A DNA stretch of 64,000 bases from Bradyrhizobiaceae bacterium PARB1 (GTDB lineage: Bacteria > Pseudomonadota > Alphaproteobacteria > Rhizobiales > Xanthobacteraceae), in the NCBI GenBank assembly GCA_002256345.1, contig NKIY01000002.1, forward strand, positions 806,001 through 870,000, written 5' to 3'. Positions 1 to 6,942 of this stretch are shown here, piece by piece. Position 1 is the first letter of the stretch, and each line of letters begins with the position of its first letter. The position numbers were made by a program, and so were the translations under genes. The notes under the pieces are model-generated. The model was not told the DNA's origin and made no database searches. It worked only from the letters and a program-made list of their open reading frames with translations.

Positions 1-567
1 CTGCACATCGATGAGCTGCAGCACGTCACGCAACACCTGTCCGAAAAAGACATGCAGGAGGTGGTTAACCTTCTCAAGCATGCGATGGAAGCGCGCCGGA
101 TCTCGATCGTGATCTCCGCGGTCGATACCGTGTTGCCTTTCCTGCAGTTCGATCCCCAACTTTTCCGGCGTTTCGACTTCATGGAATTCGAGAAGATTTC
201 GCCCAGCACGCTCGGCGATCTGCAACGCGCGGTCCACGATTTCGCGAAATCCGCGGGCGTGACCGCCGACGAAAGCCTCGAAACCCATCGTGACTTCTAT
301 TCACGCCTGGCACATGCGGGTCTCGGTGCCTTTGGCTACTCCATCGTCCTCACCCATCTCGCCATAGAGCGGTGCCTGAAGTCCGGTGACGACAAACTGA
401 CGGTCGAGCATTTCACCGGTGCCTTCGCTCAAAAGTCCGCCTTCCCACTCGACAGAAATCCCTTCAAGGCGGAGCGCTGGCATGAAATCGATTGCAGCGC
501 GCTATTCGTAGAGAAGCAGATCGCGCCGCCTGAACCATCCGTCAAGAACCGGAGGAAGAAACGATGA
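1..567 (+). CDS. tniB: TniB-like AAA+ transposition regulator, 5' end missing
   Basis: The frame is open from base 1, so the gene begins outside the window. The first visible residues, LHIDELQHV, are a Walker B motif (hydrophobic residues then DE), and the rest reads as the C-terminal half of an AAA+ protein: a sensor-1-like strand (ISIVISAV), FDPQLFRRFD, then a helical lid. TniB/TnsC proteins couple target recognition to the DDE transposase. The Walker A part and the transposase (tniA/tnsB) should lie upstream. The gene overlaps tniQ by 4 nt (ATGA), so the two are translationally coupled. The family is assigned from the Walker B, the overall look and the tniQ neighbour; a Tn5053/Tn402-type or other Tn7-like origin cannot be separated without the transposase. 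Confidence 0.75.
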   Translation: MHIDELQHVTQHLSEKDMQEVVNLLKHAMEARRISIVISAVDTVLPFLQFDPQLFRRFDFMEFEKISPSTLGDLQRAVHDFAKSAGVTADESLETHRDFYSRLAHAGLGAFGYSIVLTHLAIERCLKSGDDKLTVEHFTGAFAQKSAFPLDRNPFKAERWHEIDCSALFVEKQIAPPEPSVKNRRKKR

Positions 568-2396
568 TCACCGACGGATTGGCGCTCCGCCTGCCCTATC
601 GTCTAGACGAATTTCCGTGCTGGTTCGTTTCGCGCCTCGCCGCGCGCAACGGACGCCCCACGAAAGCCTTCGCTGCGGACATGGGCCTGGACTCGCGGCG
701 CATCGTCGACGGTCAAGCCGACGCGGTCGAGCGTTTGGCCGCGCTGGGCGATGTCCGTTTGACCGACCTGATGCACGAAACGCAGATCAGGGGCGTTGAC
801 GGAAGCTATGCGCTCCGGGATCAGGAATTGCGGACAGCCGATCTGCGCCGGTCGAGGATCCTGATCTGTCCGGAATGCCTCGCGGACGACATTGCTTCGT
901 CAGATCTGCCACCGTCGCAGGCCGCCTATGGGCGCATGACGTGGACGCTCGCCAACATCCGGACCTGCGCCATCCACGGGCTCGCGCTCATGGAGGTCGT
1001 CAAGGACGTCATCTCCCATAACTTTCCCGACTGGTGCGAGCATGTGGCGTCGGCGCTGAAGAATTTGCCGAAGCTGGCCGCGTCCGCAGCCCGCCGCCCC
1101 GCATCAACCCTCGAAACCTACATCTCCGACCGGCTGGAAGGACGCCCTACCAGCAGCTGGCTCGATCGCTTCCCCTTGTTCGCGGCGTGCCACGTCGCCG
1201 AGACGATGGGCGCCGTCGCCTCGTTCGGCACGCGGGTCAACCTAAGGAAGCTCTCCGAAGATCAGCGCTACGTTTCCGGTCACGCCGGTGCCGACATCGC
1301 CGCCGGGGGTGAAAGTGCAGTCGTGTCACTCCTGTCCGACCTGCACCGGACCTATCTCGACAAACGAACCGGCGACGCCGCTACCGCCCAGGGCGTGTTC
1401 GGCAGGCTGTACACCGTTCCAGCCGGTGGCATGGTCGGTCCCGCCTACGATCCCCTACGGTCGGTGATCCGCGGGTATCTGTCGGACCGTTTCGCGCTTG
1501 GTCCCGGCGACCACGTCTTCGGCTCGCCGGTTCCGGAGCGACGGTGGCACAGTGTGCGCACAGCATCGAAAGAGTACGGCCTGACGCCGAAGCGGTTGCG
1601 CAAGATCGTCCAGGCGGAAGGCTTGATCTCCGATCCGTCTCTACCCGATCGTGACGTTCTGTTCGACGCTCAGATCGCCGACCGGATCTTCAGGCGCGAG
1701 CAGGATATGATCAGTCGCAACTCGGTCAGAGGCTACATCAATGCCAGCGTTACAATGACGAGGGTCCTCATAGACGATGGCTTCATCCCGCTTCACGCCG
1801 CCGGGGCGGGAATGAACAATTTCTGCCTGAAGTCGGAGATCGACGCTCTGATGACCAGGCTCACATCGTCCGCAGACCCGGTTTCCGCCACACCGGGAGG
1901 TACCGCACCGATCGCACAGGCGGCCAAGCGATCCTATCGGCCGTCGGGGACGATCATCCGCCTCATCCTCGAGGGCGGTCTGGCATGGGTCGGACGCCTG
2001 GAAGGCAAGTCCGGGTTCGATGCCATTCTCGTCGACGTCGAGGAAGTCAAAATCGCGACGAAGTCAGACGACCTTCCTGGCCTGCCCGTGGCGACGGTCG
2101 CGGCGGACGTCCTAAAGACCAATTGGCGCGTCATGGAACAGCTGATCGAGGCCGAAGCGATCAGTGTTCAGGCCGCGTTCGATCCGCTCACGCGTATTCC
2201 AACCAGGATCATCACCTATGACGAGCTCGATCGCTTCCGGAAGCGGTACGTAAGCCTGCATGCGCTCTCGAAGGAAACGGGTTCACACATGAATGCGCTC
2301 AACCGTTCCCTGCAGGCGAAAGGGATTATGCCCGTCGAGTTTTCGGTACCCGTCAACGCGACTTTCTATCGCCGCGACGAAGTCGATCTCGGCTGA
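564..2396 (+). CDS. tniQ: TniQ/TnsD-like target-selection protein
   Basis: This 610-residue protein starts with a TniQ domain. The zinc ligands are visible as C102-P-E-C105 and C135-A-I-H138, spaced as in the family. The part after about residue 320 is unusual. It holds at least three stretches that read like helix-turn-helix units: about 329-354 (VRTASKEYGLTPKRLRKIV), 507-534 (LPVATVAADVL.. WRVMEQLIEAE) and 562-592 (YVSLHALSKETGSHMNALN). TnsD-type members use C-terminal DNA-binding modules to choose a fixed attachment site, whereas short TniQ proteins of Tn5053 are about 400 residues, so a TnsD-like role is inferred. The start overlaps the end of tniB. A rho-independent terminator follows 26 bases after the stop, so tniQ closes its operon. 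No CRISPR effector gene follows it. Confidence 0.8.
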   Translation: MITDGLALRLPYRLDEFPCWFVSRLAARNGRPTKAFAADMGLDSRRIVDGQADAVERLAALGDVRLTDLMHETQIRGVDGSYALRDQELRTADLRRSRILICPECLADDIASSDLPPSQAAYGRMTWTLANIRTCAIHGLALMEVVKDVISHNFPDWCEHVASALKNLPKLAASAARRPASTLETYISDRLEGRPTSSWLDRFPLFAACHVAETMGAVASFGTRVNLRKLSEDQRYVSGHAGADIAAGGESAVVSLLSDLHRTYLDKRTGDAATAQGVFGRLYTVPAGGMVGPAYDPLRSVIRGYLSDRFALGPGDHVFGSPVPERRWHSVRTASKEYGLTPKRLRKIVQAEGLISDPSLPDRDVLFDAQIADRIFRREQDMISRNSVRGYINASVTMTRVLIDDGFIPLHAAGAGMNNFCLKSEIDALMTRLTSSADPVSATPGGTAPIAQAAKRSYRPSGTIIRLILEGGLAWVGRLEGKSGFDAILVDVEEVKIATKSDDLPGLPVATVAADVLKTNWRVMEQLIEAEAISVQAAFDPLTRIPTRIITYDELDRFRKRYVSLHALSKETGSHMNALNRSLQAKGIMPVEFSVPVNATFYRRDEVDLG

Positions 2397-2422
2397 CGCG
2401 ACCGCACAAAGACATTCAACGC

Positions 2423-2454
2423 AAAGGGAGGCCCTCACCGGCCTCCCTTTTTTT
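2423..2454 (+). terminator. Rho-independent terminator after tniQ
   Basis: Perfect 11-bp stem (aaagggaggcc / ggcctcccttt) with a 6-base loop, followed by four further T residues. It lies 26 bases after the tniQ stop and faces the right way to end the tni operon. Confidence 0.9.
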
Positions 2455-2635
2455 GTGCCTTCGAGGATCGAGTTGGAGGCCGCAGATCTCCGCGATGGAC
2501 AATCCTGACGCTCCTGATGGACAAAATCGTAAATCAGCAGATCACGAAACGCCTTGTTTTACAGGCTTTTTCGCGAAATCGATGGACGACTCTGACTGCT
2601 CCTCACATTGCTGGGTACAGGACACCAGAGAGAAG

Positions 2636-2661
2636 AAAAACCCGCCTTACGGCGGGTTTTT
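2636..2661 (+). terminator. Rho-independent terminator
   Basis: An 11-bp stem (aaaaacccgcc / ggcgggttttt) with the loop ttac. The A-run on one side and the T-run on the other mean it could work in either direction. No gene ends immediately beside it on the plus strand, so it may insulate the tni operon from the defence-like genes that run towards it. Confidence 0.8.
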
Positions 2662-2918
2662 CATTTTGAACAAAGAGCAAAACCCGCCACAGCGGATTGT
2701 TCCGTCAGTAGGTTTGGATTACAGCGCGTGGACAATTCAAGATAAAGAGCTGAGGCGTCGTCTCGACTGCAATGTTCAGCGGGGACTCCTCGAACTCCTC
2801 GCCTTCCTACACTTCATGTTTACACCGTTCCGGGTCGATGACGGCGACGGCACGCCGATGTCGCCCTGCACGCTTCAAGGCCCGCGGCTCCTGCTATTGT
2901 CGCAAAGCGCGAAGTGTC

Positions 2919-3491
2919 TCAACCTCGACAGCTTTCTGAATGCATGGTGGCACACGCATCCAGATAGGTAGTTATGCTCTTTTGCGCTTGGATCAGCCCT
3001 GCAAGCTCAATGTATGTAAGATCAAATATCTTTCCTTTGACATCGGTCGGATACCGAAACCTATCGCCTCGCGGGTCCACCTCGTTGATGTCGGCGATCT
3101 GCTTCGCTACGACCATTCCCCAATCGTCCTCAGCCGGTACTCCCCAGCGGCTCATGTATCTCGAAAGCTGGTCCCACAACGCTACCAGATCGTGCCCGTC
3201 AGTTCGCGCAGCCAAATCATCTGTTTGTGCGTATTCGAGAATAGCAGTTTTCAAAGCCAACTCGATGGAATGGCGGGCAAGAAAGAAGAGCGGAATGCTT
3301 AGGTTGCCCGCGTGATGTCCCGGCACATAGATCTTGCGAGCCAGTTCATCAAAAGCGAGACTATACGTAAATGAAACATACTCCCACGTCGTCTCGAAGC
3401 TATTGATGTCAGCGCTTTGATGGATGTATTTAGCCAACAACGATTGCCCGTCGAACTCCGATAGGTCGAGCAACTCATCATATGTCTTCAT
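2919..3491 (-). CDS. HEPN-like protein paired with an Abi-type protein
   Basis: This 190-residue, mostly helical protein has no signal peptide. The stretch ARHSIELALK..ILEYA (about 72-88) followed by GHDLVALWDQL (99-109) resembles the HEPN-like helical bundles often seen in abortive-infection and toxin proteins. This is recognition by eye and not a firm family call, and no clear R(X4-6)H ribonuclease motif is evident. The ATG overlaps the stop of the upstream Abi-C gene by 4 nt (ATGA), so the two products are made together and may form a complex. Base composition is less G+C-rich than the chromosomal genes from 6 kb on. Position behind the tni genes suggests transposon cargo. Confidence 0.55.
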   Translation of the reverse strand: MKTYDELLDLSEFDGQSLLAKYIHQSADINSFETTWEYVSFTYSLAFDELARKIYVPGHHAGNLSIPLFFLARHSIELALKTAILEYAQTDDLAARTDGHDLVALWDQLSRYMSRWGVPAEDDWGMVVAKQIADINEVDPRGDRFRYPTDVKGKIFDLTYIELAGLIQAQKSITTYLDACATMHSESCRG

Positions 3492-4300
3492 TTTTTAAGC
3501 CCACGCGCTTCCCACGTCTCCAGAATGAAGAGCGCCATCGTGTGAGCGGCATGAACAGCAAGCCGAGCATGCCGTGCCTCAATCTTGTAGTGTTTAGTAC
3601 CGTGACCGTGGGCCGACCCCTCGTGGGTTCTCAATGCACCGACACCAGCAGCTATACTGAATAGACCAGATAAGATTTGTTTGAGGTCATCATCGGCCAT
3701 CTGCCCTGGAGAGAGTCCAAGATTCTTGGCAACCTCGGTCCATAGTGGCGCGATCGTCTGCTTGTTTGGGAGCGCTATCTTCTCCGATTCAAGGTAATGC
3801 TTGCACACCGCTTCAACAATCGCGCAGGCGGCGGTCACCGCAGCCCCGGGATCAGAGCCAATCGAACTGTAAGCGCGCTGATATTCAAGATCCAGCGCAG
3901 AGAGCCCGCCAGCCTTCAGCCGCTCACCAAGAGACTTGGATGGCCCTTTAAGGTGCGCCCCAATAATGTAGCCGCCGCGTTGATAACTCAATTGTTCCTT
4001 TTCAAGAACCGCCTTGATCCTCTCCCGGGCATCCCCATCGTTCGCATACTGCTCAAGGCGCCAAGGAGTCGGCTCGACGTCCATTAATTCGGCTATGAGC
4101 ATGCCGAACACTTTAAGTGGATCTGAGCATTCTGCATTGGCGCGCCTCAACCACGACAGACATTTTTGGGTCTTATTTCCTTCGGGCGGATCGCCTGGAA
4201 ATCCCGCTTGCATGAACAAAGCGTTGAGTTCTGCATGGGTATAATGTGTATCAAGAATCGGTGCGCTCGTGCCTATCAGCGCTGGCGGAATTTTAGTCAT
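3488..4300 (-). CDS. Abortive infection family protein (Abi C-terminal domain)
   Basis: 270 residues. The N-terminal part (1-110) is unassigned. The C-terminal half (about 135-265) matches the abortive-infection C-terminus pattern: a helix AVTAACAIVEAVCKHYL, then QILSGLFSIAAGVGALRTHEGSAHG, then ARHARLAVHAAHTMALFILETW. R224 and H231 in RTHEGSAH have the R(X4-6)H spacing of HEPN ribonucleases, which fits an RNA-cutting, phage-triggered suicide role; that role is inferred from the family. GGAG is placed 6 bases before the ATG. It is first in a two-gene unit with the 4-nt-overlapping gene at 2919-3491. The divergent gene at 4338 shares the 37-bp spacer, so the three are probably one module. Confidence 0.7.
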   Translation of the reverse strand: MTKIPPALIGTSAPILDTHYTHAELNALFMQAGFPGDPPEGNKTQKCLSWLRRANAECSDPLKVFGMLIAELMDVEPTPWRLEQYANDGDARERIKAVLEKEQLSYQRGGYIIGAHLKGPSKSLGERLKAGGLSALDLEYQRAYSSIGSDPGAAVTAACAIVEAVCKHYLESEKIALPNKQTIAPLWTEVAKNLGLSPGQMADDDLKQILSGLFSIAAGVGALRTHEGSAHGHGTKHYKIEARHARLAVHAAHTMALFILETWEARGLKK

Positions 4301-4337
4301 TTCGAGCTCCAGGCCCTAACTGACGGGGACAACTTCA

Positions 4338-5105
4338 GTGGTTGACGCAAAATCATTTTTTAGAGCAATTCGGAAAAACCCGGCTCAGTACTTTATCATA
4401 CACTATTCGTCCGAAATGCTATTCGATGAGAACCTGGAAGGACATTCTCCACGGATAACATCGATCGTGGTCATGCACTACCCTACCGCACAGACCCAAA
4501 GCTTCGCCTTTCATCTTTCCGCTGACCTTCTCAATATCAAAAAGGATCAGCTTGACGCCAATCTGGACGAGATCGAAATGGATCTTTTGTCCAGGTTCTA
4601 TAAGTTCGTTCGAGACAGACGCTTGATGTATTGGGTGCACTGGAACATGAGGGGCCAGCTATTCGGCTTCGAGCATCTTGAGCACCGATATCGAAAGCTC
4701 ACAGGCCTTGACGCCCCAAACATTCCAGTCGAAGTCAGACTAAACTTGAACGACATCATTCGTGCAAGGTATGGGAACGACTACGCGCAGCACAAGCAAC
4801 TCCCGAATTTGATGCTGATGCAAGGCGACATGCCAAAAGGCTTCCTCGAAGGCAAGGAAGAGGCAGAATGCTTTGCTCGGCGTGAATTCATCCGCATGAA
4901 TGAATCGACAAATACGAAAGTCCACTTTTTTCGACATGTGATCGACCTAGCCCTTCGAGGAAAACTGAAAACTGCAGGCCGCTCCCTTGCCAATCGCATA
5001 GATCGGTTGCTCGAAAGCCGCTTAGCTCGCGTACTGGCATTTACTGGGACGGTTCTAGGGTTACTGAGTTGGATTGCTTGGCTCGTTTTGTTGGCGACGC
5101 GTTAG
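4338..5105 (+). CDS. Unknown protein with C-terminal membrane anchor
   Basis: This 255-residue protein starts at a GTG (MVDAKSFF). The soluble part has HSPRITSIVVMHYPTAQTQSF and DLLSRFYKFVRDRRLMYWVHWNMRGQLFGFEHLEHRYRKL, a conserved-looking block (about 95-140) rich in aromatic and basic residues. The last 25 residues (VLAFTGTVLGLLSWIAWLVLL) form one membrane helix, so it is a tail-anchored protein facing the cytoplasm. No known catalytic motif was recognised. It diverges from the Abi-type pair across 37 bp, and its A+T-rich codon use differs from flanking chromosomal genes, which suggests transfer. It could be a membrane effector or sensor of that module; function is unknown. Confidence 0.6.
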   Translation: MVDAKSFFRAIRKNPAQYFIIHYSSEMLFDENLEGHSPRITSIVVMHYPTAQTQSFAFHLSADLLNIKKDQLDANLDEIEMDLLSRFYKFVRDRRLMYWVHWNMRGQLFGFEHLEHRYRKLTGLDAPNIPVEVRLNLNDIIRARYGNDYAQHKQLPNLMLMQGDMPKGFLEGKEEAECFARREFIRMNESTNTKVHFFRHVIDLALRGKLKTAGRSLANRIDRLLESRLARVLAFTGTVLGLLSWIAWLVLLATR

Positions 5106-5204
5106 TCTCTCCACACCAACACGCGGCGTTGTTGCATACTCATGGTTGCACTTTGAGCGCGCGGATGGCCGCGCAGGATGGCTGAGCGTCGGAGTGAGAC
5201 CCAT

Positions 5205-5415
5205 GGATATCGCTGCGCTCAACCTATCTAAGACTGCTTCCGCAACCGCGTCATCGTCGGCTTGGACATGCTTGACCGCGCGGCGGGCCGCCATTAATTC
5301 CGCAACGAGTTCGTCCTCGCGAGACGAACGAAAGGCTGGGATCGGCGAGCCGTCAGAGACGGCCGCGCACGACGAAGTAATGACCGTCGGGTGTCACCGG
5401 ATGTTGCAGGCTCAT
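5205..5415 (-). pseudogene. Broken, 3'-truncated small conserved gene at the island edge
   Basis: On the minus strand the frame from 5415 reads MSLQHPVTPDGHYFVVRGRL and then hits TGA at 5353-5355, where related proteins as I remember them have a Trp codon (RGRLW). Translation beyond it continues as RLADPSL, then moves to another frame as REDELVAELMAARRAVKHVQADDDAVAEAVLDRLSA before losing resemblance near 5205. The usual downstream block (ALGERGPVWW) is missing. So there is one in-frame stop, one frameshift and loss of the 3' third. The break coincides with the end of the low-G+C island. The adjoining 5106-5204 carries no gene; bases 5171-5208 resemble one arm of the palindromic repeat seen again at 43547. 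Confidence 0.6.
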
Positions 5416-5454
5416 CGGCTCAAAGAACCCATCCGACAATAGCGACCGAGACCG

Positions 5455-5700
5455 CTACCGAACCCGCCGTGGCTTCGGCGTGCTCTCATCCTGATAAGCA
5501 CCATAGGCCATCCAGGGATTGCGCACGCAATCGCCGCCGACGCCGCTGATCGACGCCTGGCATTGGTTGAACGATGTGAAGGAGCAGTCGGGCGTGCCAC
5601 CGGTCACCGTGGTGCGCTGGCACCAGGGGTAGTCGGGCGCCGCAGAAGCCGACGCCGAGCTCAGGAGGACGATCGCTGACGCGATGATGAATTTCTGCAT
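5455..5700 (-). CDS. DUF3551 family small secreted protein
   Basis: 81 residues from the ATG at 5700: MQKFIIASAIVLLSSASASAAP is a typical Sec signal peptide with cleavage after ASA. The mature part has four cysteines (PWCQR, PDCSF, NQCQA, GDCVR) and ends in NPWMAYGAY, the DUF3551 pattern common in Bradyrhizobium and relatives. The role is unknown; a small disulfide-bonded periplasmic protein is likely. A longer frame extends upstream, but the signal peptide and the gagctcaggagg-type context favour this start. Confidence 0.8.
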   Translation of the reverse strand: MQKFIIASAIVLLSSASASAAPDYPWCQRTTVTGGTPDCSFTSFNQCQASISGVGGDCVRNPWMAYGAYQDESTPKPRRVR

Positions 5701-6111
5701 GGTTCGAATCCTTCGATACGCAGAAGAAAAAGGCTGGATGCGGCGAACGGTTCCCGGCTCGCGTTCCATGCCAATGTCGATCCGTCCAAAACGCGCGTCA
5801 CGTTCGCGTGTTTCGGCCTGTCACAAGCACAAGGCACTGAGGAAGCCGCGCACATTCTCGGCTGCGCATTGGCGTTCGCGCGCAACGCGTCGAGGCGTCC
5901 GCGCGCTGACGGCTTCCCAATGTTGTTCGAAGATGACAATCACCTTAAGCGTAAGACGTGTTGTTTCCTCGGGCTCGTGCGCACCCGGCAAGGCTCGATG
6001 GCATCGGGCAGCCCCTCCTGACCTTGCGTGCCGCGCAGCGACCCCACGCACTTCTGGTTGCGCGCGATCGCCCTTCAAATGACATTTTAAAGGTGAGAAG
6101 ATTTTTACGAC
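5701..6111. other. Intergenic region, no supported gene
   Basis: This divergent spacer lies between the DUF3551 gene and the response regulator. On the plus strand one frame is open from about 5680 to a TGA at 6019-6021 with protein-like composition (for example VDPSKTRVTFACFGLSQAQGTEEAAHILGCALAFA) but has no usable start codon at its head. It may be a gene remnant. The A+T-rich patch at 6081-6107 is the likeliest promoter area for the gene that follows. Confidence 0.4.
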
Positions 6112-6942
6112 TTGCGGTACCAATTGTGGGGCGCATCATCCAACAGCGACTGGGAACGCCTCCAAGTGAATTCCGATCTCGAGTTCGCAAGCTCCGCGTG
6201 GCGATTGCTGCTGGCCGAAGACAGCAAGGTGGATGCCGAAATCATTGCCGATCACATTCGCGGCTATCCGATCCCGATCGAGATCACGCGGGTGTCGACA
6301 GGCGAAGAAGGACGGACACTGCTCAGCAGCAATCAGTTCGACCTCGCATTTTTCGATGTCGTGTTCTCCGGCCTGAGTGGCATCGATGCGCTGAGAAATG
6401 TGCGCGAGGCCGGATTCAGGACATTCGTCACGCTCATCTCCAGCAGTCGGCCTGATGACTACCGCCGGATTGGCCGCGAGCTCTTCGCCTATGACTACCT
6501 GCAAAAGCCGCTCACGCGTGAGCTCATTCACGCTGTCCTCGATGCCTATGCGGAAACCCGCATCAGGAAGAAGATATTGCTGATCGACGACAGCGCGACC
6601 GCGCGCCGTCTGATGAAACGCATCATGGAACGAAGCCTGTTCGACGTGGACATCGTCGAAGCGAGCGATGGCGTCGCGGGCTTCGAAGCGTTCATGCGAC
6701 ATCGCCCCGACGCAGTCTTCGTCGATCTCCACATGACGGTGCTCGATGGCGAGTCCACGATCCGCATTATCCGGGCCGCAAATGCCTATGTGCCGATCGT
6801 GCTGGTGACTGGCGATACCCAGGCACTCATGGGCACCCGAGCCACCTACAAGCTGTCCAAGCCTTTCACGCCCTATCAGATCAGCGAGCTGCTCTATAAT
6901 TTCTGCAGCCTGCGCGCGCCTTTGAGCGACGCCGCGCCGTAA
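6112..6942 (+). CDS. Response regulator with two receiver domains
   Basis: Two CheY-like receiver domains are fused with no output domain. Domain 1 (about 30-145) has acidic residues E36-D37, phospho-acceptor D82 (AFFDVVF) and K132 (YLQKP). Domain 2 (about 154-272) has D159-D160 (LLIDDSATA), D205 (VFVDLHM) and K250 (LSKPF). Both have the key residues, so both may be phosphorylated by a histidine kinase that is not nearby. Output is probably by protein contact, as in phosphorelay connectors or chemotaxis-type regulators. The start is uncertain: TTG at 6112 or GTG at 6166, since homology only begins near residue 29. It stands alone as a transcription unit. Confidence 0.8.
   Translation: MRYQLWGASSNSDWERLQVNSDLEFASSAWRLLLAEDSKVDAEIIADHIRGYPIPIEITRVSTGEEGRTLLSSNQFDLAFFDVVFSGLSGIDALRNVREAGFRTFVTLISSSRPDDYRRIGRELFAYDYLQKPLTRELIHAVLDAYAETRIRKKILLIDDSATARRLMKRIMERSLFDVDIVEASDGVAGFEAFMRHRPDAVFVDLHMTVLDGESTIRIIRAANAYVPIVLVTGDTQALMGTRATYKLSKPFTPYQISELLYNFCSLRAPLSDAAP

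Follow-up and report, generated by a model that had tools for sequence, protein, structure and literature searches.

Our results indicate that three tightly packed genes of Bradyrhizobiaceae bacterium PARB1, here designated A, B, and C, are very probably anti-phage cargo in some form. The genes occupy positions 2919 to 5105 of a 64,000-nucleotide stretch of contig NKIY01000002.1 (positions 806,001 to 870,000, forward strand), and this whole stretch is referred to below as the window. We further propose, with a probability of about 0.5, that A, B, and C act together as one mobile system of the abortive-infection type. B would act as the effector, a HEPN ribonuclease that uses R224 and H231 for catalysis and halts the cell once released. 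A, a second predicted HEPN fold without the conserved catalytic pair, would most likely pair with B and restrain or tune it. C, a predicted membrane-anchored degenerate exonuclease domain, would most likely bind incoming phage DNA or RNA at the membrane, and would then either trigger A/B or itself block the phage.

The interest of the locus lies in the C family rather than in B, which taken alone is an already known kind of gene. The C family stands out for its spread over phage, viral, and plasmid sequences, its DISARM and Gabija settings, and an enzyme fold that is unexpected at a membrane. C is a specific candidate for a new way to detect or block phage nucleic acid, and the locus suggests what its effector may be.

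Structure of the locus and purifying selection

The sequence-only reading of the window had described three open reading frames (ORFs), with A overlapping B and C divergent from them, and all three are present in this arrangement. The features of the locus are as follows.

2919-3491, minus strand: gene A, 190 amino acids (aa), helical protein with a predicted HEPN fold and no conserved Rx4-6H motif
3488-4300, minus strand: gene B, 270 aa, abortive-infection protein whose C-terminal domain is of the HEPN (Abi_C) type and whose N-terminal part has no Pfam match
3518-3745, minus strand: Abi_C (HEPN) domain of B, residues 186-261 (Pfam PF14355)
3608-3631, minus strand: predicted HEPN catalytic motif of B, R224-x6-H231, invariant in 11/11 aligned sequences
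4301-4337, no strand: gap of 37 bp separating the start codons of B and C, which are divergent
4338-5105, plus strand: gene C, 255 aa, GTG start, phrog_8766 family, predicted exonuclease fold and C-terminal membrane helix
4377-4964, plus strand: residues 14-209 of C, modeled as the 3'-5' exonuclease-domain fold of B-family DNA polymerases
5019-5099, plus strand: residues 228-254 of C, predicted C-terminal transmembrane helix (hydropathy and AlphaFold model)
1-2396, plus strand: TniB (truncated by the window edge) and TniQ, a Tn7-like transposition module (Pfam)

The frames of A and B share 4 nucleotides. The lower G+C content remarked on from the sequence also holds, with values of 0.503 (A), 0.538 (B), and 0.487 (C) compared to 0.583 to 0.666 in the 1-kb bins of the window outside positions 2001-5000. 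Between the window and a related locus (L022), synonymous sites are saturated (pS of 0.874, 0.754, and 0.848 for A, B, and C, respectively) and nonsynonymous divergence is low (pN of 0.135, 0.047, and 0.071). This indicates that all three genes are protein coding and under purifying selection and that the ORFs are not due to chance. A promoter scan found 0 promoters, while shuffled sequences yielded 2.0.

C resembles a membrane-anchored exonuclease with an apparently rebuilt active site

C matched the phrog_8766 family with an E value of 6.3e-45. Although the sequence-only reading saw no recognized domain in the protein, its AlphaFold model (predicted local distance difference test score of 90) places residues 14-209 in the 3'-5' exonuclease-domain fold of B-family DNA polymerases. 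The single C-terminal membrane helix noted previously was retained, as C has one hydrophobic stretch, with a Kyte-Doolittle maximum at residues 232-250, and the helix of the model spans residues 228-254.

For catalysis, the DEDD exonuclease domains of B-family polymerases rely on four acidic residues, of which strand 1 carries two and a helix start and the last helix carry one each. The positions conserved in C (29 to 30 of 30 sequences) are H22/S24/E26 on the face of strand 1, G110 at the helix start, and S190/K194 in the last helix, and helix 184-206 contains no conserved acidic residue. When sites are paired by secondary structure, range ends, and one local alignment only, C lacks the four-acid DEDD set and apparently retains no more than one of the catalytic acids. 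Judged from the model, C looks like a degenerate exonuclease with an apparently rebuilt active site. C also differs from the polymerase exonuclease domains in having no polymerase domain and in adding a membrane helix.

Neither A nor C gave a usable match in Pfam, NCBIfam, or PADLOC (none at E ≤ 1 in the last), and sequence searches with their profiles against solved structures found no credible relative of either. In profile-profile comparisons, C reached probabilities of 2.5% with polymerase B and 0.8% with a 3'-5' exonuclease set, compared to 0.1 to 0.7% with other profiles, and these values do not constitute support alone. The two profiles were built from 25 loci of a 120-genome search, and wrong frames in at least three rows (L177, L181, and L191) weaken the comparison.

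B is a HEPN-type protein and A a predicted one

B matched Pfam Abi_C (PF14355) over residues 186-261 with an E value of 8e-23 and 80.8 bits (curated cutoff, 24), and PADLOC AbiJ with an E value of 8.6e-16, covering residues 153-261 only. R224 and H231, separated by six residues, are invariant in the 11 sequences aligned (the window, 3 genomes, and 7 plasmids), giving B a conserved Rx4-6H motif. The Abi_C identity and the HEPN-type spacing that had been read from the sequence are thus both confirmed, and by sequence R224/H231 would be the catalytic pair of a ribonuclease. At E ≤ 1, the Pfam scan of B returned Abi_C only and none of AbiJ-NTD1-5, with coverage of every NTD model by the library unchecked. 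Searching the B profile against solved structures produced matches to two designed proteins, which were judged spurious.

B relatives matched in 143 plasmid records, 115 of them with at least 80% query coverage. The 40 listed of the 143 are all annotated "abortive infection family protein," and some plasmid relatives are situated near recombinases or toxin-antitoxin genes. Viral contigs contributed 23 loci. In eight of these (L148, L149, L152, L155, L157, L159, L161, and L162) the B relative starts within 10 to 13 bases of the end of its contig, a position that would be expected of cargo flanking a prophage attachment site. Among the 296 genomes of the family, a full-length B match is found in 3 (G000, which is the window's genome, G140, and G218), and an Abi_C-domain match at E ≤ 1e-10 in 18. 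The B relative of G218 (L114:6124-8527), 65% identical, overlaps the end of AbiEii, and the resulting AbiEi-AbiEii-B row is possibly a three-gene variant of AbiE. A second, short Abi_C-like ORF (L024:10677-11039), 51% identical to residues 194-269 of B, was observed in the vicinity of the trio and close to a GmrSD_N gene.

The suggestion that A is HEPN-like agrees with a fold match of its predicted structure, which corresponds to a HEPN helical bundle. In 13 sequences, the invariant positions among R, H, E, K, and D are R72, E76, K80, H99, D138, and R145, and no R and H at the Rx4-6H spacing are both invariant. One locus first taken as a relative of A (L035 in G154) was dropped, as it has no BLAST match, and five weaker matches (L008 and L013-L016) were read as a short locus only.

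C relatives are found in prophages, plasmids, and defense loci

C is rare in genomes. It occurs in 4 of the 296 family genomes (one a fragment) and in 2 of the 385 class genomes, with the window's genome included in both counts. It is present in 5 plasmid records from three phyla, 8 phage records, and 39 viral loci, some of them near-identical. Among 5,426 Escherichia coli genomes, DNA relatives of two viral C genes were found in 0 and 1 genome. In both of the Streptococcus phages examined (two out of seven), C lies between a Cro/CI-type regulator with an integrase and the early genes, and in the single E. coli genome it is flanked by ssrA and the tail genes of a prophage.

As to known defense genes, a C-family gene separates DrmMI from DrmA within a DISARM operon of G019 (L027:3271-13266), C adjoins the Gabija genes GajA/GajB and a caspase-like gene on contig MT835554, and C directly follows a TrlF-annotated ATPase on an Agrobacterium plasmid. 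On Calothrix and Sporosarcina plasmids, the annotation gives no defense gene beside C. The link to defense that had been suspected from the window is substantiated to the extent that relatives of both B and C are found beside known defense genes. These neighbors are a strong anecdote and not a measured enrichment, because the ten proteins scanned were chosen by hand.

Tentatively, we propose that C founds an undescribed and widespread anti-phage family (phrog_8766), a tail-anchored proofreading-exonuclease fold in which the metal-binding acids are replaced by invariant His/Ser/Glu/Lys residues. Prophages and plasmids may employ such a protein singly, to sense or block invading nucleic acid at the membrane, and in the clade of the window it may be coupled to a two-HEPN ribonuclease effector.

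The Gabija setting, in one stretch of a contig deposited as a phage (L045:119-8307), comprises the Gabija pair, a HAD-like gene (ORF reading), the member of the C family, a small gene that lacks a Pfam match, and a caspase-like gene.

Linkage of A, B, and C and alternative explanations

A genome scan with C identified four loci (L022-L025), all from Bradyrhizobium, and the order of A, B, and C is the same at each of the four. Between the start codons of B and C lie 36 to 38 bp in these relatives and 37 bp in the window. With synonymous sites saturated and pN low between the window and L022, the A-B-C arrangement is old for a mobile cassette. L022 is the only one of the four relatives with all three genes intact; A matches only to residue 133 and the end of C is altered in L023, A and C are each split over two frames in L024, and C is cut at residue 115 in L025. 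In G140, whose C is 52 to 53% and B 80% identical, B and C are adjacent but convergent, a PDC-S21/DUF4917 gene lies beside B, and the 17 kb examined contain no A. A tree of 41 C proteins, which omits L024, L025, and 11 near-duplicate viral rows, groups the window, L022, L023, and G140 with support of 100/98, and places the Gabija contig and G635 beside this clade. The most economical history would have C linked to B first and A added later. Downstream of the cut C in L025 (L025:8001-10198), ORFs resembling a REP-associated transposase were observed (ORF reading only).

Co-occurrence of the three families, on which the idea of a module depends, thus holds in a narrow clade of five loci including the window, and was not found among the other loci examined. 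Outside the clade, another member of the trio was found at none of the 50 distant C loci (from 3 genomes, 5 plasmids, 3 phage records, and 39 viral sequences, with near-identical copies among them), at none of the 31 B loci (from 7 plasmids, G218, and 23 viral sequences), and at none of the 20 A loci (from 8 genomes, 2 plasmids, and 10 viral sequences). These counts cover the stretches examined, many of the viral loci being short, and the B loci exclude relatives of the Abi_C domain only (most of the 18/296 genomes, and L115). G019 holds relatives of C and of the Abi_C domain of B on different contigs.

That each family occurs alone is what would be expected if these were separate defense genes, whether three single genes or C alongside an A-B pair, which share an island and protect independently, their tight spacing reflecting the packing of cargo. 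The flipped orientation in G140 and the damage to C in three of the four relatives, all of which keep the full frame of B, point in the same direction, and this explanation is a serious possibility. It accounts less readily for the order and the 36- to 38-bp gap, which are kept in 5/5 loci in spite of saturated synonymous sites between the window and L022, or for the fact that B is still beside C after the rearrangement in G140.

We consider it improbable that A and B are a toxin-antitoxin pair that maintains a mobile element, with C, for example a superinfection gene, as an unrelated neighbor. The overlapping frames of two HEPN-type proteins, together with plasmid relatives of B near recombinases or toxin-antitoxin genes, would suit such a pair, but full-length B relatives without A are found on plasmids and in viral contigs, which argues that A is not an obligate antitoxin, and in G140 it is with C, and not with A, that B has stayed. 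That the three are housekeeping or metabolic genes unconnected with defense is very improbable, as no point in favor of this was seen and both the patchy distribution of C among the family and class genomes and the defense and prophage settings of the relatives speak against it.

Comparison with known systems

The statement that the three-gene combination is not a named system was upheld, in that no named system in PADLOC 2023 is matched by all parts, only B having a match (AbiJ), and the combination was not met in the open-licence literature. The HEPN/MNT (HepT-MntA) system is a two-gene HEPN toxin-antitoxin unit. A and B likewise form a two-gene unit with HEPN folds, but both are HEPN-like, and neither A nor C has a nucleotidyltransferase match. 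B shares the Abi_C domain and the R-x6-H motif with the Abi_C/AbiJ-type HEPN proteins (PF14355), but differs in having no AbiJ-NTD match in the Pfam scan and in having A and C as constant neighbors in the clade. As excerpted, a survey of HEPN proteins counts AbiJ among the HEPN families, notes that its N-terminal domains vary, and proposes that these domains contact phage components or restrain the toxin (PMC3710099).

For C, the term "phrog_8766" is absent from the open-licence literature searched, and no counterpart of a membrane-anchored exonuclease-like defense protein was matched there. PdpSau and AbiP, in the excerpts of their description (PMC10127798), have a single membrane anchor and a predicted nucleic acid-binding domain, as does C, and PdpSau is prophage encoded. 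In PdpSau the anchor is N-terminal and accompanies an OB-like region, whereas in C the helix is C-terminal and the fold is that of an exonuclease; the idea is similar, and kinship is not claimed. None of the queried terms is present in the excerpts of a BREX survey (PMC12839542), and the comparison also took in excerpts of DefensePredictor (PMC13092281) and a survey of bacterial polymerases (PMC12926913).

Transposon setting and borders of the island

TniB (Pfam E value, 8.4e-6) and TniQ (9.2e-15) lie just upstream of the trio, and TniA-like and TnsA-like genes were also read upstream, from ORFs only. Abi_C is known as cargo of Tn7-like transposons, with pfam14355 found in 48 of them in the excerpts of Benler et al. 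(2021, PMC8649781), and the window likewise has an Abi_C gene beside a TniB/TniQ module. It differs in that the transposon ends were not found; an inverted-repeat search comparing the region left of the TnsA-like gene with positions 2397-5459 gave nothing convincing and no paired repeats. The 8-kb flanks of L022-L025 and the 17 kb of G140 contain no TniB or TniQ match, and TniQ relatives, counted anywhere in the genome without regard to distance from the trio, are present in two of these five genomes. No tRNA genes were found in L021.

The match of two relatives (G155 and G244) to the window begins at position 5450, suggesting that the insertion boundary of the island may lie between positions 5105 and 5450. 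In the same relatives, the regions matching 5450-5820 (DUF3551) and approximately 6970/7056-7200 are about 270 and 30 bp apart, compared to more than 1.1 kb in the window, and from this short spacing the response-regulator gene at 6112-6942 looks like a separate insertion.
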